Assembly: GCA_947379755.1 (NCBI GenBank)
Contig: CANCOC010000027.1
Location: 1 to 39,569, forward strand
Source: Alcaligenaceae bacterium
GTDB taxonomy: Bacteria > Pseudomonadota > Gammaproteobacteria > Burkholderiales > Burkholderiaceae_B
DNA: 39,569 bases
Direction of reading: 5' to 3'
Under the pieces are notes generated by a model. It was not told the origin of the DNA. It made no database searches and saw nothing but the letters and a program-made list of their open reading frames with translations. Made by a program: the position numbers and the translations under genes. Shown piece by piece: positions 12,945 through 33,338 of this stretch. Within the stretch, counting starts at the first letter, position 1; each line of letters begins with the position of its first letter.

Positions 12945-13646
12945 ATGATCAAGCTTCGCAGATCGCAGGAACGTGGGTACGCCGATCACGGCTGGCTCAA
13001 ATCTTTTCATAGCTTTTCGTTCGCAAATTATCATGACCCCGCGCATATGGGCTGGGGTAATCTGCGTGTCATCAACGAAGACAGGATCGCACCAGGCACG
13101 GGCTTTGGCACGCATGGTCATCGGGATATGGAAATCATCAGTTATGTGTTGACGGGCAACCTGGCGCATCAAGACAGTATGGGTAATGTCAAGGGAATCC
13201 CACCCGGCGATGTGCAACGTATGAGCGCTGGGCGCGGCGTGCAGCACAGCGAATTCAATCACGCGGAGGGTGAGACAACGCACTTTTTGCAGATCTGGAT
13301 TGAACCCAATGTGAAAGGCATTGCGCCTGGGTACGAACAAAAAACAATTGCACAGGAAGACAAACGCGGCCATCTAAAACTAGTGGCTTCACCTGAGGGC
13401 GCCAATGGTGCGGTCAAAATCCATGCGGATGCCCGCCTGTATGCAGGTTTGTTTGATGCTGATGAGCAAACCGAACTTGCGTTGGATCCTGCACGCAAAG
13501 GGTATGTGTTCCTGATCAAGGGCGAGCTGCATGTCAACGGCCATTCGCTTGTTGCCGGTGATGCCGCCCTGCTTGAGGGCGAAAGCCTGATCGCGCTAAG
13601 CGCAGGTGTAAACGCTGAAGTGCTTGTATTTGATCTGGCTGCCTGA
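12945..13646 (+). CDS. pirin family protein (YhaK/YhhW-like)
   Basis: A 233-residue bicupin. The N-terminal cupin has the metal-binding signature GTHGHRDMEI and the later HSEFNH. Together these supply the usual His/Glu ligands of an iron-binding pirin. Relatives act as quercetinases or redox-sensitive proteins. TGAGGA precedes the ATG. The gene is divergent from the YhaJ-like regulator and followed after 123 nt by DoxX, suggesting a quinone-stress response. Confidence 0.92.
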   Translation: MIKLRRSQERGYADHGWLKSFHSFSFANYHDPAHMGWGNLRVINEDRIAPGTGFGTHGHRDMEIISYVLTGNLAHQDSMGNVKGIPPGDVQRMSAGRGVQHSEFNHAEGETTHFLQIWIEPNVKGIAPGYEQKTIAQEDKRGHLKLVASPEGANGAVKIHADARLYAGLFDADEQTELALDPARKGYVFLIKGELHVNGHSLVAGDAALLEGESLIALSAGVNAEVLVFDLAA

Positions 13647-13690
13647 GTGCTTGCAGAGCCAGACAGGTTTTAGTTTTACGCACGTTATTT

Positions 13691-13722
13691 ATTGATTTAT
13701 TGATTTATTGATTTATTGATTT
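13691..13722. repeat. tandem octamer repeat (ATTGATTT x4)
   Basis: Four perfect copies of ATTGATTT, with partial copies on both sides, lie in the 123-nt gap between the pirin and DoxX genes. The array is 48-79 nt upstream of the DoxX start, where it could set promoter spacing. Simple repeats of this kind can vary in copy number by slippage. Confidence 0.85.
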
Positions 13723-13769
13723 ATTTATCATTCACTGATCCATAGCTTTCAAATAAAGGGAATTCCACC

Positions 13770-14180
13770 ATGTTCAATACACTTCAAAATCCGTTTGCCC
13801 TGATTGGTCGCTGGTTACTGGCGGCTCTTTTTCTACCTGCAGGTATTGCAAAAATGACAGGTTTTGCAGGGACGGTTGGCTATATCGCCTCGGTCGGACT
13901 GCCAGCGCCCACTCTCGGTGCAGTGATTGCGCTGATTGTCGAAGTCCTGGGTGGCTTGTCACTGGTGCTCGGTTTTGGCACACGCGTTGCCGCAGTTGTC
14001 CTGGCGATTTTCACGCTCGTCGCATCCTTCTTTTTTCATCCTTACTGGAATGTTGAAGCTGCACAACAATTGATTCCATTCCTGTTGTTCTACAAAAATA
14101 TCGCTGTAGTAGGTGGCCTGCTGATTCTTGCCGCCTTTGGACCAGGCGCTTGGAGCCTCGACGCAAAACGCGCCAACTAA
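13770..14180 (+). CDS. DoxX family membrane protein
   Basis: A 136-residue integral membrane protein with four predicted hydrophobic segments and the family motif LPAGIAKMTGF near residue 24. DoxX-family proteins such as YqjF and YphA are linked to thiosulfate:quinone oxidoreduction or to resistance to electrophiles. E. coli yqjF is a known YhaJ target, in keeping with the YhaJ-like regulator nearby. AAAGGGA precedes the ATG. It is followed after 33 nt by a flavodoxin-family gene. Confidence 0.9.
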   Translation: MFNTLQNPFALIGRWLLAALFLPAGIAKMTGFAGTVGYIASVGLPAPTLGAVIALIVEVLGGLSLVLGFGTRVAAVVLAIFTLVASFFFHPYWNVEAAQQLIPFLLFYKNIAVVGGLLILAAFGPGAWSLDAKRAN

Positions 14181-14213
14181 CCTTCGTTTTTATCTTATTC
14201 AGGAGTTACAACG

Positions 14214-14765
14214 ATGTCTAAAATTATTGTGGTGTATCACTCAGGTTACGGTCATACCAAGCGCATGGCTGAGTCGGTGGCAGAGGGCGCAGCAGCCCAG
14301 TTGCTGGCGATCGATGCCGAAGGCAATGTATCCGAGCAGGGCTGGGAAACCCTCGCTGCAGCAGATACGATTGTGTTTGGTTCGCCGACCTATATGGGTG
14401 GCCCAAGCTGGCAATTCAAGAAATTTGCAGATGCAACATCAAAGCCCTGGTATGGCCGTGTCTGGAAAGACAAGCTGTTTGCAGGTTTTACCAATAGCGC
14501 CAGCTTGAACGGCGACAAAGGCAGCACCTTGAATTATTTTGTCACGCTTGCGATGCAGCACGGTGGTTTCTGGGTCGGAACAGGCATGTTGCCTGCCAAC
14601 TCAAAGGCTGCAACACGTGGCGACCTCAACAACCTGGGCAGCTCAATCGGTGCCATGGCGCAATCGCCGTCTGACGCAGGCGTGGATGAAATGTTTGCGG
14701 GTGATCTTGAGACAGCCAAACAGTTCGGACAGCGTATCGCTGCTGCAACCGCTAAACTGGCCTGA
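14214..14765 (+). CDS. flavodoxin-family NAD(P)H:quinone oxidoreductase (WrbA-like)
   Basis: A 183-residue flavoprotein. The N-terminus has the FMN phosphate-binding loop HSGYGHTKRM, and the GSPTYMGGPSWQ segment matches the second FMN loop. The family performs two-electron reduction of quinones, avoiding semiquinone radicals. An AGGAG ribosome site lies upstream. With pirin and DoxX it forms a three-gene quinone/electrophile defence set ended by a hairpin at its stop codon. Confidence 0.9.
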   Translation: MSKIIVVYHSGYGHTKRMAESVAEGAAAQLLAIDAEGNVSEQGWETLAAADTIVFGSPTYMGGPSWQFKKFADATSKPWYGRVWKDKLFAGFTNSASLNGDKGSTLNYFVTLAMQHGGFWVGTGMLPANSKAATRGDLNNLGSSIGAMAQSPSDAGVDEMFAGDLETAKQFGQRIAAATAKLA

Positions 14766-14791
14766 TCCTTCAGGCCTGGTTTGTAGTTTTT
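14759..14791 (+). terminator. Rho-independent terminator after the flavodoxin gene
   Basis: The seven-base arms GGCCTGA and TCAGGCC enclose a TCCT loop and overlap the stop codon. They are followed by a T-rich stretch ending in TTTTT at 14787-14791. It probably closes the pirin-DoxX-flavodoxin unit. Confidence 0.6.
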
Positions 14792-14806
14792 GCATGACTT
14801 TCATGG

Positions 14807-14825
14807 TCGCCCGATAATCGGGCGA
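14807..14825. promoter_or_regulatory. GC-rich palindrome upstream of otnK, candidate operator
   Basis: The inverted repeat TCGCCCG-ATAAT-CGGGCGA is centred about 56 nt before the otnK start. It lacks a following T-run, so a regulator-binding site is as likely as a second terminator hairpin. No regulator gene is adjacent to the otn genes. Confidence 0.4.
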
Positions 14826-14871
14826 TAATATTGAAAATAATGCTGAAGCGCCAGCAAACTGGGCCTGAAAA

Positions 14872-16122
14872 ATGAACAACATACTCTTGGGTTGTATCGC
14901 GGATGATTTTACCGGTGCAACCGATCTTGCCAATAATCTTGTACGTGCTGGTATGCGGGTGGTGCAAACCATCGGCGTACCTGATGGACCGCTCGATGCC
15001 GAGGTGGATGCTGTCGTGGTCTCCCTCAAGTCACGCACCATTGCACCCGACGAGGCCGCGAGCCAGTCTGTTCGTGCGCTGAAATGGTTGCAGGAGCAGG
15101 GCGCGCAACAAATCTATTTCAAATACTGCTCGACCTTTGATTCGACGCCCCAGGGCAATATTGGTCCGGTCACTGATGCGCTGATGGCCGCGCTGCAGAC
15201 TGACTTTACGATTGCAACACCAGCATTCCCGGATGCGGGACGAACGGTCTTCAAGGGCTATTTGTTTGTTGGTGATGTGCTGCTTCACGAAAGCGGCATG
15301 CAGGATCACCCGCTTACGCCGATGACTGATCCCAATCTTGTGCGTGTATTGCAAGCTCAGACCCGTCACAAAGTGGGCCTGATTGATTACAAGGTGATTG
15401 CAAAGGGGCCCGCCGCTATTCAAGACCGTATCGCCGTCTTGCGCGAGCAAGGTGTTGGCGTTGCTGTCGTGGATGCAGTGAGTAATGAGGATCTGATGAG
15501 CCTGGGTCTCGCACTCAAAGGGATGCCTCTTGTGACTGCCGGCTCGGGTGTTGCAATCGGTCTGGCGCAAAATTTCGGTATTGCGCCCAATCTCCAGGCC
15601 GCTGTTTTGCCTGCACCACAAGGTTTTCAAGCCATTCTTTCTGGCAGCTGTTCGCGTGCAACCAATTTACAAGTCGCAGACTTTATTTCGACTGGACGCC
15701 CAGCTTTCGTGCTCGACCCCCTGCGATTGGCGGATGGTTCGACTCTGATCGAGCAGGCACTTGCCTGGGCCGCACCTAAATTGAAAGACGGCCCGCTATT
15801 GATTTACTCGACTTCACAACCAGAACATCTCAAACAGATTCAGGACAAGCTGGGCGTAAAGGTTGCGGGGGAGATTGTTGAGCATGCCCTGGCACGTATT
15901 GCGCAGGGTCTGGTCGAAATGGGTGTTGGTCAGCTTGTCATTGCTGGTGGTGAAACCTCAGGTGCTGTCGTCCAGGCGCTAGCCATGAATCAGTTGCAGA
16001 TCGGTTCGCAGATTGATCCCGGTGTGCCATGGTGTGCTGGTAATGGGATCCACATTACGCTGAAGTCCGGTAATTTCGGGACAACAGACTTTTTTACAAA
16101 AGCTTTTAGCTGGATTGCCTGA
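14872..16122 (+). CDS. otnK: 3-oxo-tetronate kinase (four-carbon acid sugar kinase, DUF1537)
   Basis: A 416-residue cytoplasmic kinase. The N-terminal substrate-binding domain starts with the signature CIADDFTGATDLANNL. The C-terminal nucleotide-binding domain has AGGETSGAVVQAL near residue 365. It phosphorylates 3-oxo-tetronate at C4 in the breakdown of D-erythronate or L-threonate. Its stop overlaps the start of the next gene (TGATG), implying coupled translation. The otnK-otnC-denD order supports the tetronate assignment over other acid-sugar kinases. Confidence 0.92.
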   Translation: MNNILLGCIADDFTGATDLANNLVRAGMRVVQTIGVPDGPLDAEVDAVVVSLKSRTIAPDEAASQSVRALKWLQEQGAQQIYFKYCSTFDSTPQGNIGPVTDALMAALQTDFTIATPAFPDAGRTVFKGYLFVGDVLLHESGMQDHPLTPMTDPNLVRVLQAQTRHKVGLIDYKVIAKGPAAIQDRIAVLREQGVGVAVVDAVSNEDLMSLGLALKGMPLVTAGSGVAIGLAQNFGIAPNLQAAVLPAPQGFQAILSGSCSRATNLQVADFISTGRPAFVLDPLRLADGSTLIEQALAWAAPKLKDGPLLIYSTSQPEHLKQIQDKLGVKVAGEIVEHALARIAQGLVEMGVGQLVIAGGETSGAVVQALAMNQLQIGSQIDPGVPWCAGNGIHITLKSGNFGTTDFFTKAFSWIA

Positions 16123-26944: not shown

Positions 26945-27334
26945 ATGAGTAATCAGAATCAAGCGATGGTCAACAATACGCATCCTGTCACGGTCTATTT
27001 TGATGGGTCCTGTCCGTTATGCCGTCGGGAGATAGGGTTTTACCAGCGCTGCAGCGGCGCCTCGGATATAGTCTGGCAAGATGTCAGTGAGAGTGCGCAG
27101 GGTCAGCCCGCCGAGGATTTGACCTGTCGTCAGGCAATGGCAAGATTCCATGTCCGCGATACTCAGGGATCGTTAACAAGCGGTGCGGCCGCCTTTGTGC
27201 AATTGTGGCTCGCATTAAAGAATTGGCGCTGGCTCGGCAAGCTTTGCAGCGGGCCCCTGATGCTTCGTGCACTTGAGCATGGTTATGTTTTCTTTTTACG
27301 TTGGCGTCCGGCATTGCAACGCCGTTTGAAATAA
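26945..27334 (+). CDS. thiol-disulfide oxidoreductase DCC family protein (DUF393)
   Basis: A 129-residue protein with the DCC signature near the N-terminus (YFDGSCPLC, giving D-x-x-C-x-x-C) and a C-terminal hydrophobic helix region. Family members are predicted thiol-disulfide oxidoreductases of unknown partner. The start MSNQNQ is preferred to the longer frame at 26864, which adds residues not seen in the family. It ends 35 nt before folE and may be the first gene of the folE-BLUF unit. Confidence 0.87.
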   Translation: MSNQNQAMVNNTHPVTVYFDGSCPLCRREIGFYQRCSGASDIVWQDVSESAQGQPAEDLTCRQAMARFHVRDTQGSLTSGAAAFVQLWLALKNWRWLGKLCSGPLMLRALEHGYVFFLRWRPALQRRLK

Positions 27335-27369: not shown

Positions 27370-28071
27370 ATGAACGATTCAGATCAAGACAAAGGCACTC
27401 CCGTTTCGCTCGTGATTCGAAAGCGGCTGCAGGATGCGCGTAAACGCTTCCACGCGAATGACAATATTTCGGATTTTATTGAGCCAGGCGAGTTAGAGTT
27501 ATTGCTCGATGAAGTCGAATCAAAAATGAAAGGCGTGCTCGAAAGTCTGGTGATCGATACGGTCTCTGACCACAACACCAATGACACCGCCCGACGTGTA
27601 GCCAAGATGTACCTGAAAGAAGTCTTTGGCGGTCGCTACGCGGTTCAGCCCAAAATCACAGAGTTCCCTAACGTTGAACACCTCAGCGAGCTGATGATTG
27701 TCGGCCCTGTTACGGTGCGCAGCGCCTGCAGCCACCATTTTTGTCCGGTGATTGGCAAGGTTTGGATTGGCATCATGCCCAATGAACATACAAACGTGAT
27801 TGGCTTGTCAAAATACGTTCGCCTGGCTGAATGGATCATGAGTCGTCCACAAATTCAGGAAGAGGCTGTTGTACAACTGGCTGACCTCATCCAGGAAAAA
27901 ACACAGCCGGACGGTCTTGCCGTCGTCATGAGCGCGACACACTTTTGCATGTCCTGGCGCGGGGTCAAGGATCCCGATAGCCGCATGATTAATTCTGTCA
28001 TGCGTGGTGCATTTTTGAAAGACGCTAATTTGCGTCGTGAATTTCTGTCTCTAATTCCACGAGAGGTTTGA
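27370..28071 (+). CDS. folE: GTP cyclohydrolase I, divergent FolE
   Basis: A 233-residue enzyme making dihydroneopterin triphosphate from GTP, the first step of folate and pterin synthesis. Zinc and catalytic residues are present: Cys-x-His-His in CSHHFCPV, and His-Phe-Cys in THFCMSWRG. Triphosphate-binding Ser, Lys and Arg lie in GLSKYVRLA. It differs from housekeeping FolE in reading CSHHFCPV instead of the usual CEHH(L)xPF, and its C-terminus reads MINSVMRGAF rather than the usual Thr-rich stretch. It is thus probably a second, pathway-specific copy. No good ribosome site precedes the ATG. BLUF follows after 2 nt. Confidence 0.9.
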   Translation: MNDSDQDKGTPVSLVIRKRLQDARKRFHANDNISDFIEPGELELLLDEVESKMKGVLESLVIDTVSDHNTNDTARRVAKMYLKEVFGGRYAVQPKITEFPNVEHLSELMIVGPVTVRSACSHHFCPVIGKVWIGIMPNEHTNVIGLSKYVRLAEWIMSRPQIQEEAVVQLADLIQEKTQPDGLAVVMSATHFCMSWRGVKDPDSRMINSVMRGAFLKDANLRREFLSLIPREV

Positions 28072-28073
28072 TC

Positions 28074-28499
28074 ATGCTGGTACGTTTACTTTATGTCAGT
28101 CGCGCACTGGATCCGAATGATCAGGTGGCAACCCAGTCTATTCTTGAAAGTGCCCGTGAACACAATGTGGTCAATGGCATTACTGGGATACTGTGCTACG
28201 GCGGTGGTATCTATCTTCAGGCGATAGAGGGTGGTCGGCAAAAGATTAATGAACTCTATGGTCACATTGTCCGTGATCCCCGCCACAAAGAGGTCGAACT
28301 CTTGCATTACGAGGAAATCACCGAACGCCGGTTCGGTGGCTGGACGATGGGTCAGGTGAATTTATCCAAACTCAACACGTCTATAGTGCTCAAGTACTCC
28401 GAAAAAGCCGAACTGGATCCTTATTCTGTCTCAGGTTACGTGTCGATGGCCCTGCTTGAAGAACTGATGCTGACGGCATCCATTATGGGACGTGCCTGA
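28074..28499 (+). CDS. short BLUF-domain blue-light photoreceptor
   Basis: A 141-residue stand-alone BLUF protein that binds FAD. The light-switch residues are all present at the spacing of Rhodobacter AppA: Tyr7, Asn31, Gln49, Trp90 and Met92. A C-terminal helical extension of about 45 residues follows and has no output domain. It should therefore act through a separate partner, possibly by binding a regulator. The start is the ATG with GAGAGG upstream, inside the end of folE, suggesting coupling. The neighbours are pterin synthesis and photolyase genes. Confidence 0.94.
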   Translation: MLVRLLYVSRALDPNDQVATQSILESAREHNVVNGITGILCYGGGIYLQAIEGGRQKINELYGHIVRDPRHKEVELLHYEEITERRFGGWTMGQVNLSKLNTSIVLKYSEKAELDPYSVSGYVSMALLEELMLTASIMGRA

Positions 28500-28563
28500 A
28501 ACACTTTACGGTGCCTTGCCTGTTGCCATATCCCTTCGTACCCTTGAACGTTAAATATAAAAA

Positions 28564-29754
28564 ATGAATTCTCACGATCACTCACTTGCAGTGCGGTTGT
28601 TGTTGAATGTCGGGCATGGGCTGGATCATATGTTTCTGCTCATATTTGCCGCTGCGGTGGGTGTGATTGCAAGTGACTTTGGCTTGCAGAGCTGGGAAGA
28701 TCTTATGCCCTATGGTGTAGGGGCGTTTGTCATGTTTGGCTTAGGTTCGATTCCATCCGGACGTTTGGGTGATCTGTGGGGCAGGCGCCGGATGATGGTC
28801 GTTTTTTTTGTGGGCATCGGCGTCTCGACACTGCTTGTCTCAATGGCGCAAAGTGCCTGGCAGCTGGCCGTCGCGTTAACGCTTGTAGGGACCTTTGCTT
28901 CGATCTATCATCCGGTCGGTATTCCGCTGCTTGTTCAAAAGTCTGCGAATCCGGGGCTTGCGATTGGCGTGAACGGCTTGGCGGGCAACCTCGGCGTGGC
29001 ACTCGCTGCGATGCTGACGGGGTTTCTGATCCAGTGGTTTGGTTGGCGTGCCGCCTTCGCTGTGCCTGCGATCCTGTCTGTCATCTGTGGCGGGTGGTTT
29101 GCCTATATTTGTCCTGCAGAGACCGAAGCTCCAGCCAAAAGAAAAGCGGGTGTCAAAGTCGCCTTGTCGCCCGCAATGCTGGCGCGCGTGCTGGCAGTGA
29201 TGACAGTCAGCGCAGCCACAGGCAGTATCTTGTTCAATCTCACGACCAACGGTAATGGCCAGTTGATGGCCGAACGCTTTCAGGGGGTTGTGGATGATCC
29301 TGCAACGCTCGGTATGCTACTCGCAGTCATCTACACGGTTGCTTCGCTGATGCAAGTACTTGTGGGTAAGTTGCTTGACCACTTTGCAGTCAGACCCATA
29401 TTCCTGGGGATTGTATTGTTGCAGATCCCCTTGCTGCTCATGGCTTCATTTGCTCAGGGCTGGTGGTTGTTTGCAGCACTGCTGGGTGTGATGGTTTTTA
29501 TATTCGGCGCAGTCCCTTTTGTAGACATCATGATTGTGCGTTATGTCGATGATCGCTCCCGCTCACGCGTCGCGGGAATCCGGTTGGCTGTTTCACTCGG
29601 GATCAGTTCGTTTGCGGTATGGCTGCTCGGGCCTGCAGTCAAAGGCCTCGGTTTTGAAACCTTGCTCTGGGTGATGGCAGGTTGTGCAGGCTGTACTGCA
29701 ATCGTTGTGTTATTTTTGCCAACAGAATCTTCTCCTCCAAGGATCCCTACATGA
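28564..29754 (+). CDS. MFS transporter
   Basis: A 396-residue, 12-helix major facilitator. Motif A is seen as [13 protein letters not shown] between helices 2 and 3, and a charged central loop (AKRKAG) separates the halves. It is somewhat like the fosmidomycin-resistance group in its SIYHPVG segment. The substrate is unknown. Its ATGA overlap with the pterin dehydratase gene suggests a functional link with pterins. Confidence 0.87.
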
Positions 29755-30047
29755 GTACGGTCGCTAAACTTGAATACGCCGAGGCTCAGCCTTTGCTTGC
29801 TACGCTGCCAGAGTGGCAATACCAGAAAGACCGAGGTGGCTTGATCAAGCGGGATTTTAAATTTTCGAATTTCATCGAGGCCTTTGGCTTTATGTCACGT
29901 GTGGCATTGCTTGCCGAAAAGTCCGACCATCATCCTGAATGGTTCAATGTCTATAACCGTGTCTCGATCACACTGACTACACATGATGCACAAGGGCTAT
30001 CCATGCGCGATATCGAACTTGCCCGCTTGATTGACGATATCGCTTAA
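29751..30047 (+). CDS. phhB: 4a-hydroxytetrahydrobiopterin dehydratase (pterin-4a-carbinolamine dehydratase)
   Basis: A 98-residue protein, the normal length. The active-site motif E-K-S-D-H-H-P-E-W is followed by VYNRV and a TTHDA histidine, fitting the family pattern. It dehydrates 4a-carbinolamine pterins and so regenerates the oxidised dihydropterin. No aromatic amino acid hydroxylase gene is in the window, so a role in pterin-cofactor recycling or photolyase chromophore supply is considered (inference). Its ATG overlaps the MFS stop, with AAGGA upstream. Confidence 0.93.
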
Positions 30048-30095
30048 GGCTCTTTCACGATGCACTGGCTGTTGTGTGTGCCGGCTACCCAGAGT

Positions 30096-31625
30096 TTATA
30101 AGTCATTTAATCTGTTTCTTGTGATGTTAGCCTGATCTGTCAGTGCCTTGAATGATTCTGTATCCATCTTTTCAAGGGTGCGATAGACCATGCCAAGGCG
30201 GAAGTTTTTTGACAACTTTTCCTTGTGTCGTGCAAAAAAATCCCAGTACAAGGCGTTGAACGGACAGGCTTTTTCGCCTTCTCGCAGTTTTTTGTTGTAG
30301 TGACAGCCTTTGCAATAGTCGCTCATCCGGTCAATGTAGGCAGCACTCGAAACATAAGGCTTTGTCGCGAGCAGCCCACCATCCGCGTACTGGCTCATGC
30401 CAACCGTGTTGGGCAATTCAACCCATTCAAATGCATCGATATAGACCCCCAGATACCAGCGGTGAACTGCTGCCGGATCCAGCCCCGCGAGTAAAGAGAA
30501 ATTGCCGATAATCATCAATCTCTGAATGTGATGGGCGTAGGCATGTTCAAGAGATTGCCCGATCGCATGTGACATACAGCGCATGTTTGTCTGCCCGGTC
30601 CAGAACCATTCTGGCAGCGCATTCTGGTGTTCAAAGACATTATGGTTTTCGTAGCCCGGCATCTGGGCCCAGTAAATCCCGCGAACATATTCACGCCAGC
30701 CGATTATTTGCCGGATAAAACCTTCCGCAGTGGCAAGTGATACGCGTCCCTCCTGCCAGGCCCGCTCCGCGCGTTCAACGACTTCATGCGGGTTGAGCAT
30801 TTTGGTATTCAGTGCAAAAGAGATGAGCGCGTGAAACAAGCGCCAGCCTTTGATGCTCATGGCATCCTGATAGTTACCAAAATCGGGCAGAATCTGTTTA
30901 ATAAAGGTGTCGAGTTGTTTGAGCGCCTCAGCGCGATCAACAGGCCAGGCAAAGGACTGGGCTTGTGGATTGCCAAAGCTCTTGACGCCCGCTGCCTCAA
31001 TACTTTTCCAGAGTGCGCTGTGATCGTGCCGGCTGCGGCAATCCTCGGGCTCAGGTGGCGTACCCGTCCAGGCCTTGCGGTTTTCCTGGTCAAAATTCCA
31101 CTGGTCACCCATGGGTTTTTTAGCATCTTGCATCAGGACCCCGTGCCGGGTGCGGATCTGGCGATAAAAACGTTCCATCAACCATTGCTTCTGACCGACA
31201 AAAAGTTTGGCTGTTTCGAGCCGCTCGGTGTAGAAATGCTCGCTTGAAACCATTGCTGATTCAATTTGCAATGTTTGGGTAAATGTTTTGAGCTGTTCGT
31301 CGAGTCGCCATTCATCAGGCTCCTGATATTCAAAGCGCTGACACTGGTATTGCGCGATGAGTTGTTCAATGTTTGCTGTGAGAGACTGTTGATTGTCACT
31401 GTCATCGATTGCGATGTAATGCACGCGATGACCTCTGGTCTTGAGCGCACCAGCCAGTGCTCGCATCCCCGCAAAAACGCCAATGATCTTTTGCGCATGA
31501 TGCAGGACATAGTCCGTTTCCTGCCGAATTTCCATCAGGGTGTAAATGGTGTCGGGGGAGGGCGTGATCAACCAGCTATGTTCTGGATTCAGCTGGTCGC
31601 CGAGTATGAGTCTGAGAGTGGTCAT
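30096..31625 (-). CDS. FeS-BCP family photolyase/cryptochrome, (6-4) photolyase PhrB type
   Basis: A 509-residue protein of the iron-sulfur bacterial cryptochrome/photolyase group. The four [4Fe-4S] cysteines stand at 350, 438, 441 and 454, which I recall as the same numbers as in Agrobacterium PhrB. The N-terminus LRLILGDQLN is diagnostic. PhrB repairs (6-4) photoproducts using FAD and carries 6,7-dimethyl-8-ribityllumazine as antenna. The start MTTLRL is chosen because the longer frame upstream is an out-of-frame reading of the DUF2256 gene. It lies 7 nt after that gene. Confidence 0.94.
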   Translation of the reverse strand: MTTLRLILGDQLNPEHSWLITPSPDTIYTLMEIRQETDYVLHHAQKIIGVFAGMRALAGALKTRGHRVHYIAIDDSDNQQSLTANIEQLIAQYQCQRFEYQEPDEWRLDEQLKTFTQTLQIESAMVSSEHFYTERLETAKLFVGQKQWLMERFYRQIRTRHGVLMQDAKKPMGDQWNFDQENRKAWTGTPPEPEDCRSRHDHSALWKSIEAAGVKSFGNPQAQSFAWPVDRAEALKQLDTFIKQILPDFGNYQDAMSIKGWRLFHALISFALNTKMLNPHEVVERAERAWQEGRVSLATAEGFIRQIIGWREYVRGIYWAQMPGYENHNVFEHQNALPEWFWTGQTNMRCMSHAIGQSLEHAYAHHIQRLMIIGNFSLLAGLDPAAVHRWYLGVYIDAFEWVELPNTVGMSQYADGGLLATKPYVSSAAYIDRMSDYCKGCHYNKKLREGEKACPFNALYWDFFARHKEKLSKNFRLGMVYRTLEKMDTESFKALTDQANITRNRLNDL

Positions 31626-31632
31626 TAAGTGC

Positions 31633-31800
31633 CTAAGTTGTTGCCCTGGCCGATATGCGGCATTTGTCTGAACAGTATTTGACCTGATCCCAGTCGCGTG
31701 CCCATTTTTTGCGCCAGGTAAAGGGCCTGGAGCAATGCTGGCAGGGCTTGCTGGGTAACTGATTTTTTTTAAGGCCACGCATGGCGGAGTCGTTGCTCAT
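31633..31800 (-). CDS. DUF2256 family zinc-ribbon-like microprotein
   Basis: A 55-residue protein with four cysteines in two pairs (Cys20/Cys23 and Cys43/Cys47) around RPFTWRKKWARDWDQVKYC, the family core. I recognise DUF2256, often found beside FeS-BCP photolyase genes; its function is unknown. The ATG shares an A with the upstream photolyase stop (TGATG), and the next photolyase starts 7 nt downstream, so all three are surely one transcript. A nucleic-acid or protein-binding zinc ribbon is a reasonable inference. Confidence 0.88.
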   Translation of the reverse strand: MSNDSAMRGLKKNQLPSKPCQHCSRPFTWRKKWARDWDQVKYCSDKCRISARATT

Positions 31801-33338
31801 CAGAACTCAAACGACTGTTGCGGCGAAGGAAGCCCGGCAGCGCTACGCGCACTGCCCGTGCGAGGCAGTGTACGCTTGCGCGAGGCGTGTTTTTCTACGA
31901 CTGCGGCTTTTCCAGCCCTCACCTCTGATTGTGCACGCAGTGTGAATAGTTTTTTCTTTGCTGCCCGAGTCGCTTCGTCCAGATTCACGAGTGGTTGTGC
32001 AATATCCTGAGTGAGATGCAAGCCGTGCTGCGTGAGTAATGAGTCTGGCATACGCCAGGGCTCAAAAATCCAGGTGTCAGGCACTTTTTTTAAGGCTGGA
32101 ATCCAGCGACGCACAAAAACGCCTTGAGGGTCATGGTCGCGTGCCTGTTTGATCGGGTTGTAGATCCTTGGAATGTTGATCCCTGTTGTGCCTGATTGCA
32201 TCTGGATCTGGCTCCAGTGGATTCCAGGTTCATAGTCCAGGAATTGTCGTGCCAGCCAGTTGCCAATGGGTTTCCAGTGCAACCATAACGGATAGCCCGC
32301 TGTAGAAACCAGCATGGCACGCATTCTGAAGTTCAACCAGCCTGTTTCTCTGAGCATGGCCACGCATGCATCAATCAGCGGCCAGCCCGTGCGTCCTGAC
32401 ACAAGTGCCTCAAAGTGTTCTGCATTCCAGTCGTTTTCCCGCAAGCCGTCGTAGCCCCGGTGCAGGTTCTGATGTTCAAGTGCGGGCTCGCTTTCCAGTT
32501 TTTGAATAAAGTGGCAATGCCAGTACAGACGGCTGACAAACGCATTGAGCCCTTTGGAGCGCTGAGTGTCACCAGGATGCAGGCACGCGAGTTGTGCGGC
32601 TGTAGCTTGCACCACTTCACGCAAACTGAGGCAACCGTAGGCCAGGTAGGCTGAAATCCGCGAGCAGGCTGTGGGTGCAGAAAGTGGCGATGAAATTCCG
32701 CCCCGATACTGATTGCTGCGCGAAGTCAGAAAGCTTTCAAGTACGGTTAAGGCGTGTGTGCGGCCACCAGCTTGTCTGTTGGGTGGGTCGTATGGATCCA
32801 GGCCCAGCTCAGCAGGGCTGGGTGGCCTGGGTTCTTGCCAGGGCAGCGTCACGCCTTGAATTCTTGTGGGTGCATCGATCTGCGGCATGCTGACATGCGT
32901 ATCCCAATGATTTTTCCACAAATTGCGATCTTTGAGACGTCGCACCACGCCGAACTGTTGAAACTCGCACCACTTAACGTCTGTCGCCTTACACCACCGT
33001 GCGATGTCAAGGTCGCGCTGATAACTCAGTCCATTTCCTGTTTCTTCGTGCGAGTACAGACGGTGAAAAGGTTGCAGAGAATGAAGCCGTTGCAGGACCT
33101 CACTGGCCTGTCCTGTTACTACATACAGGATTGCACCACATCGCTTGATGGCGAGATAGAGTTCTCGCAGACTTTCAAGAATGAACTGGTAGTGCTGGGC
33201 GGCGGCATCCGGCGCCGACCACAGTTTGGGTTCTATCACATACAGGCACAGGACAGGGCCAGACTTGAGGGCGGCGTTCAGCGCTGCATGATCGTGCAAG
33301 CGTAAATCACGTTTGAACCACACTACGCTGTAAGACAT
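31800..33338 (-). CDS. FAD-binding DNA photolyase/cryptochrome family protein
   Basis: A 512-residue protein. The N-terminal Rossmann photolyase domain begins SYSVVWFKRDLRLHDH. The C-terminal FAD-binding domain includes the segment IHWSQIQMQSGTTGINIPRIYNP. It resembles the CPD-photolyase group in which that segment replaces the W-x-x-G-T-G motif of E. coli PhrB. It probably repairs cyclobutane dimers using light, but a cryptochrome sensor role cannot be excluded. The basic C-terminal tail (about residues 465-512) is longer than in E. coli PhrB. The start MSYSVV is chosen over a 22-residue longer frame. Confidence 0.9.
   Translation of the reverse strand: MSYSVVWFKRDLRLHDHAALNAALKSGPVLCLYVIEPKLWSAPDAAAQHYQFILESLRELYLAIKRCGAILYVVTGQASEVLQRLHSLQPFHRLYSHEETGNGLSYQRDLDIARWCKATDVKWCEFQQFGVVRRLKDRNLWKNHWDTHVSMPQIDAPTRIQGVTLPWQEPRPPSPAELGLDPYDPPNRQAGGRTHALTVLESFLTSRSNQYRGGISSPLSAPTACSRISAYLAYGCLSLREVVQATAAQLACLHPGDTQRSKGLNAFVSRLYWHCHFIQKLESEPALEHQNLHRGYDGLRENDWNAEHFEALVSGRTGWPLIDACVAMLRETGWLNFRMRAMLVSTAGYPLWLHWKPIGNWLARQFLDYEPGIHWSQIQMQSGTTGINIPRIYNPIKQARDHDPQGVFVRRWIPALKKVPDTWIFEPWRMPDSLLTQHGLHLTQDIAQPLVNLDEATRAAKKKLFTLRAQSEVRAGKAAVVEKHASRKRTLPRTGSARSAAGLPSPQQSFEF

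Follow-up and report, generated by a model that had tools for sequence, protein, structure and literature searches.

A folE-BLUF gene pair in Burkholderiales and its possible role as a light-responsive GTP cyclohydrolase unit

GTP cyclohydrolase I (FolE) converts GTP into dihydroneopterin triphosphate, the entry to folate and pterin synthesis. Many short proteins of the photoreceptor family BLUF have no known partner. This text deals with a stretch of 39,569 nucleotides from an Alcaligenaceae bacterium (GCA_947379755.1, contig CANCOC010000027.1, here contig C27 of genome G000; "the window" in the following), in which a folE gene is followed by a gene for such a short BLUF protein. The assembly comprises 3.37 Mb in 154 contigs and is 94.6% complete; we infer that its genus is Zwartia. 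Among the closest described systems, the BLUF protein PixD binds a separate protein in a light-dependent manner and takes the form of two stacked pentameric rings in the crystal (PMC5899715; papers with PMC numbers are cited throughout from excerpts). GTP cyclohydrolase I of animals (GCH1) is a D5 decamer flanked on its five-fold axis by two pentamers of the protein GFRP (PMC7750480). In Pseudomonas, light induces folE and photolyase genes through LitR and short LOV proteins (PMC9758184), folE2 of P. putida is named in the light-response context of PMC8508746, and the excerpted text of PMC4844311 contains no mention of folE or cyclohydrolase. It is already known that a BLUF sensor can act on a separate partner protein; no description of a folE-BLUF pair was found in the open-access literature searched, from which most subscription papers and all preprints are excluded.

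The grouping of genes in the window has two layers, a folE-BLUF core and a set of genus-level neighbours. In the reading towards which we lean, the two-gene unit is the functional core and the BLUF protein has the dedicated task of regulating FolE in response to light, probably by binding it directly.

Distribution of the folE-BLUF pair

The folE gene of the window (27370-28071, plus strand) encodes 233 amino acids, and two nucleotides separate its stop codon from the start of the BLUF gene (28074-28499, plus strand, 141 amino acids). Among 300 sampled genomes of the window's order, 71 matches to the FolE subfamily were obtained at 1e-60, and 49 of them have a BLUF gene directly downstream on the same strand, with gaps of 5-69 nt. 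The tie between BLUF and the pterin enzyme FolE, asserted for this locus in an earlier note made from the window alone, is thereby borne out. The same genomes contain 50 BLUF matches above 165 bits, 49 of which are those downstream of folE; the next score is at most 131 bits. For the fiftieth (G056), the contig ends at a distance of 352 bases, and the folE match of this genome stops 146 bases short of the end of another contig, as expected of a broken pair. The dependence is one-sided: FolE occurs without BLUF, whereas no BLUF of this type turned up apart from folE in the genomes searched, if the broken contig of G056 is set aside. Its direction fits a BLUF protein serving FolE. No common replacement gene was seen in the flanks of BLUF-less folE copies in gene lists read by eye, without a family scan.

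In the window's genus, BLUF is present in 28 of 32 genomes, the window included. Three of the four remaining genomes also lack folE and one carries a folE fragment, so that the absence of BLUF fits gaps of incomplete assemblies. BLUF is likewise present in all of the best 80 of 581 FolE relatives (one copy cut by a contig end), a set biased by its selection for similarity. It consists of 7 Zwartia-like loci (FolE at least 88% identical, same neighbours) and 73 others (at most 83%), many of the latter on short contigs and 43 of them full length. Beyond the order, 369 genomes of the class were searched, eight of which match the FolE alignment at 1e-40; BLUF is located directly downstream of folE in three genomes outside the order (G482, G593, G672), and two class-level genomes (G520, G686) have weak FolE matches without BLUF downstream.

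The evidence that carries most weight comes from a set of 23 loci of 16 families, chosen for holding the pair, the flanks of which were compared over up to 5 kb on each side at 1e-15. No flanking gene is shared in 237 of the 245 between-family comparisons, and folE and BLUF remain 8-44 nt apart in all 23 loci. No neighbour besides FolE is conserved across these families; pixE elsewhere in the genome was not searched. Since the pair is kept while its surroundings change, this is the strongest evidence for a functional link.

Further evidence comes from the FolE tree and from loss of BLUF. In a FolE tree of 65 rows (quick method; without L080, L194, L195 and 48 of the 73 loci L096-L168, and with L088 dropped earlier for lack of a FolE match at 1e-5), the presence or absence of BLUF needs 4 changes compared with 20.2 in shuffles, a clustering in which gain and loss are not separable from the tree alone. 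Two genomes, G129 (locus L169) and G168 (L170), have a folE locus that is syntenic but for the missing BLUF. Their FolE, measured against three neighbouring genes, is more divergent than that of every BLUF-bearing locus compared, with ratios of 0.70 and 0.74 (maximum elsewhere 0.53, n=54), 0.63 and 0.77 (0.59, n=24) and 0.60 and 0.62 (0.54, n=47).

The two proteins and the GTP cyclohydrolase complement

The BLUF protein of the window (PF04940, 99.9 bits) is PixD-like. The best solved-structure matches of the BLUF profile are 1x0p (Tll0078), 8i98 and 2hfn (Slr1694/PixD); 1x0p is aligned over profile positions 2-132 and 2hfn over 2-130, i.e. the alignments reach the C-terminal part. The C-terminal tail is as conserved as the domain itself (0.86 vs 0.81). 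Residues Y7, N31, Q49, W90 and M92 of the BLUF flavin network are invariant in 87 of 87 BLUF sequences, and the residues for photochemistry are accordingly intact in the alignment. Another contig of the window genome (C17) contains two distant BLUF-like open reading frames of 162 and 150 amino acids in tandem (L059, 8010-8498 and 8517-8969, plus strand).

FolE matches PF01227 with 147.7 bits (cut-off 27 bits) and stays below the equivalog cut-off of TIGR00063 (149.6 vs 181.6 bits). Judged by its sequence, it is a member of a divergent subfamily and best named GTP cyclohydrolase I-like FolE. The window FolE carries the motif CSHH in place of the CEHH of three aligned canonical FolE proteins, and serine rather than glutamate follows the first zinc cysteine in 110 of 110 subfamily members (alignment without L080, L194, L195 and the three canonical rows). 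C120, H122, H123, S147, K148, Q163, E164, H191, C193 and R197 are invariant in 12 of 12 aligned rows; these positions presumably correspond to the zinc-ligand and catalytic set of E. coli, the one change from glutamate to serine apart. A short N-terminal motif, present in 42 of 88 members with BLUF and in 18 of 22 without, was rejected as a mark of the subfamily, and a comparison of FolE residues between the two groups was discarded as evidence, being confounded by phylogeny.

The window genome has one PF01227 match and no PF02649 match, which makes this folE the only GTP cyclohydrolase gene found in it; the idea of a spare copy for light response was dropped, no second copy having been found. 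As the sole candidate found in a genome that also possesses FolK, the enzyme is predicted to convert GTP into dihydroneopterin triphosphate. Of the 32 genus genomes, 29 have a single PF01227 match, a fragment in one case, and three have none; FolE2 was found in 0 of 32. Outside the genus, 47 genomes with the pair were searched: FolE2 occurs in 28 of them, a further PF01227 match but no FolE2 in 5, and neither of the two in the remaining 14. G039 and G048 possess no other GTP cyclohydrolase, and G040 a canonical FolE as well. In two genomes (FolE2 match at 12786-13541 of contig C112 in G148 and at 8380-9129 of contig C35 in G314) folE-BLUF is preceded on its own strand, at a distance of a few hundred bases, by a FolE2 match, so that both kinds of GTP cyclohydrolase stand beside one light sensor.

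Neighbours of the pair in Zwartia

Open reading frame and Pfam scans of the window recover all genes named in the earlier note, at about the coordinates it gave, as complete open reading frames with Pfam matches above the cut-offs. Downstream of the pair, an MFS transporter gene (28564-29754, plus strand; PF07690) overlaps with its stop codon the start of phhB (ATGA; 29751-30047, plus strand), which encodes a pterin-4a-carbinolamine dehydratase (PCD) of 98 amino acids (PF01329, 112.4 bits). Facing them on the minus strand are the genes of an FeS-BCP-type photolyase (DPRP; 30096-31625; PF04244, 242.3 bits), of a DUF2256 microprotein of 55 amino acids (31633-31800; PF10013, 75.6 bits) and of a photolyase with DNA_photolyase and FAD_binding_7 domains (31800-33338; PF00875, PF03441). 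These three are facultative neighbours, the FeS-BCP gene being outside the conserved core. The same holds for the DCC1-like thiol-disulfide oxidoreductase gene upstream of folE (26945-27334, plus strand; PF04134, 79.8 bits), which lies just outside the stretch 27370-33338; many genus members possess a GGT gene directly upstream of folE in its place. A DCC1-like gene with 40% identity also occurs near folE-BLUF in one locus of another family (L203), the sole checked Zwartia neighbour seen outside the genus in the cross-family set. An Rfam scan of the window gave no matches, a promoter and terminator scan gave fewer sites than in shuffled sequence, and no LitR or LOV gene is present among the ten Pfam-scanned proteins around the pair, the rest of the genome not having been searched.

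Twenty-seven further genus loci were compared with the window, and the following counts, made by hand, include it. The MFS gene follows folE-BLUF in 27 of 28 loci. phhB is located downstream in 23 of 25 loci with enough contig (absent in L043 and L054; L035, L046 and L053 left out for short contigs), and a photolyase gene in 20 of 22 (absent in L043 and L049; L035, L037, L046, L053, L054 and L061 left out for the same reason). FeS-BCP was not found in L043, L049 and L050, the last of which still has a photolyase; L043 and L049 thus carry the folE-BLUF core without photolyases. Outside the genus, neither this MFS gene nor phhB, DUF2256 or either photolyase was detected in any of the 73 loci (tblastn at 1e-5, up to 7 kb on each side), nor were they near the pair in any of 22 loci from other families in a second set, searches that more distant photolyase types could escape. 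The conservation of the neighbourhood in relatives, which the earlier note had made a touchstone, therefore holds inside the genus and was not seen outside it. MFS, phhB and the facing photolyase cluster are peripheral and were gained by the unit in Zwartia; the neighbouring photolyase genes appear to have been added locally.

No PCD gene other than phhB was found in the window genome, and a phenylalanine hydroxylase (PAH) gene is located on another contig. PCD is present in 26 of 32 genus genomes, PAH over the cut-off in 7 of 32 (one more below it), and all seven PAH genomes have PCD. A role of PhhB as PAH helper only was rejected on these counts. PhhB may help PAH where PAH exists, and may have a use beyond it in the other 19 PCD-bearing genus genomes.

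Several loci show further features of the photolyase cluster. In L048 the DUF2256-like and FeS-BCP-like stretches form one continuous open reading frame of 569 amino acids (14378-16087, minus strand), which suggests that DUF2256 may work with the FeS-BCP photolyase; no paper on DUF2256 with photolyase was found in the open-access literature searched. A DUF2256-like stretch (42% identity, 2.8e-12) is also located near a BLUF-less folE of the same subfamily (L183). A Zwartia panacis-like locus (L033) contains a third photolyase-family open reading frame of 465 amino acids between FeS-BCP and DUF2256 (13188-14585, minus strand), which looks DASH-like by its motifs and which the window lacks.

Possible roles of the pair and comparison with known systems

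The earlier note had proposed that the photolyases receive a dedicated pterin, supplied or recycled by FolE and PhhB for their antennas, and that a BLUF partner is in control. A photolyase gene does stand downstream in most testable genus loci, relatives of the L033 type carry a third gene of the family, and light-induced folE and photolyase genes are reported from Pseudomonas in the excerpts of PMC9758184 and PMC8508746. Against this, no GTP cyclohydrolase besides FolE was found in the window genome, nor FolE2 in any of the 32 genus genomes, so that FolE must serve folate as a whole and is not dedicated to the photolyases; PhhB, the only PCD found in a genome with PAH, has an ordinary possible job; and no photolyase was detected beside the pair in 73 of 73 and 22 of 22 non-genus loci, nor in L043 and L049. 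We consider the proposal quite unlikely to hold in its dedicated form; a folate product may have a secondary role as photolyase antenna in Zwartia. A reversed relation, in which FolE serves BLUF by making a pterin that is its ligand or second chromophore, would explain why BLUF was not found away from FolE and FolE was found without BLUF. Pterins have been discussed as sensory chromophores (PMC3546692, excerpt). BLUF domains are known to work with flavin alone, however, and FolE is kept where BLUF was lost; we think the presumed pterin binding quite improbable.

That the pair is inherited by synteny without any functional link agrees with the flanks conserved in the 43 full-length Comamonadaceae-type loci, but the flanks differ in nearly all comparisons across the 16 families while the pair is kept, and we hold such an origin to be very improbable. 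More has to be granted to the possibility that BLUF acts on another partner, e.g. a regulator of transcription with its gene elsewhere in the genome, and lies in the folE operon merely for co-production: the excerpt of PMC5899715 describes BLUF proteins acting on regulators (BluF-BluR, AppA-PpsR), and shared transcription would also hold the pair together. Across families, however, the pair has no further conserved neighbour, and in the genomes searched the BLUF type did not turn up apart from FolE, though a regulator partner would not require FolE; we give this alternative a limited but real chance.

Several observations weigh against BLUF as the dedicated regulator of FolE. In the Comamonadaceae-type loci just mentioned, the downstream gene recurs in 42 of 43 and the upstream genes in 39 of 43, so the pairing within these loci is largely ordinary synteny and only the cross-family comparison counts; the loci of the latter were in turn picked for having the pair, and its search would miss weak flank homologues. 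FolE lacks an adjoining BLUF in 22 of the 71 order-level matches (21 if G056 is a broken pair), i.e. it works without BLUF, and outside the genus the light-linked enzyme is not always the sole GTP cyclohydrolase supply. The rate test represents one loss event in two genomes of one genus, of which G168 possesses FolE2, which may relax FolE, and G129 none. The correlation of FolE and BLUF distances (r = 0.83) is confounded by species history. AlphaFold models built on shallow alignments (mean predicted local distance difference test, pLDDT, 61.5 for BLUF and 44.2 for FolE) were too poor and were left unused, and the binding of FolE by BLUF and the control of its activity by light are predictions.

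As regulator of FolE, the short PixD-type BLUF protein would sense blue light and turn the output of its dedicated partner up or down in response, direct binding to the FolE decamer being the most likely means. A light-gated cap is plausible, given that both families build five-fold rings and that pentamers of GFRP cap GCH1. We put forward only tentatively a light-gated GTP cyclohydrolase in which a PixD-like BLUF ring would cap the five-fold faces of the FolE decamer in the manner of GFRP. In many Burkholderiales, as in a few relatives, blue light would then set the first step towards folate and pterins. The pairing suggests that light controls folate (pterin) production in its carriers. If so, a vitamin pathway, the one that antifolates target, would be under the control of light at its first step, and the BLUF protein would be a bacterial counterpart of GFRP and part of a new light-switchable enzyme. 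The tie to a single enzyme in many families gives the BLUF protein a candidate partner, which is testable with two purified proteins. The locus further illustrates that sensor, photolyases and pterin enzymes, a striking neighbourhood, can resolve into a core that is kept widely and neighbours that are local.

Among known systems, PixD-PixE of Synechocystis resembles the pair in its short PixD-type BLUF protein, with 2hfn and 1x0p matched through the C-terminal part, but PixE is a response-regulator-like protein, and here the gene conserved beside BLUF encodes a folate-synthesis enzyme. Fusions of BLUF with enzymes (photoactivated adenylate cyclases, BlrP1), chains of which are among the solved matches, join a BLUF sensor to an enzyme under its control, in one chain and with nucleotide second messengers, whereas here the chains are separate and the enzyme belongs to a vitamin pathway. 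The LitR/short-LOV regulon of Pseudomonas (folM-folE-folX, phrB, cryB) also comprises folE and photolyase genes, light-induced in that case, but the excerpt of PMC9758184 describes a LOV sensor, a MerR-type transcription regulator and a folM-folE-folX operon in place of a BLUF gene coupled to folE. Animal GCH1-GFRP, finally, has an enzyme of the same family as FolE and a geometry that a PixD-like ring could copy; BLUF is no known kin of GFRP, the complex here is a predicted one, and its regulatory ring would respond to light where GFRP responds to phenylalanine or tetrahydrobiopterin (BH4).

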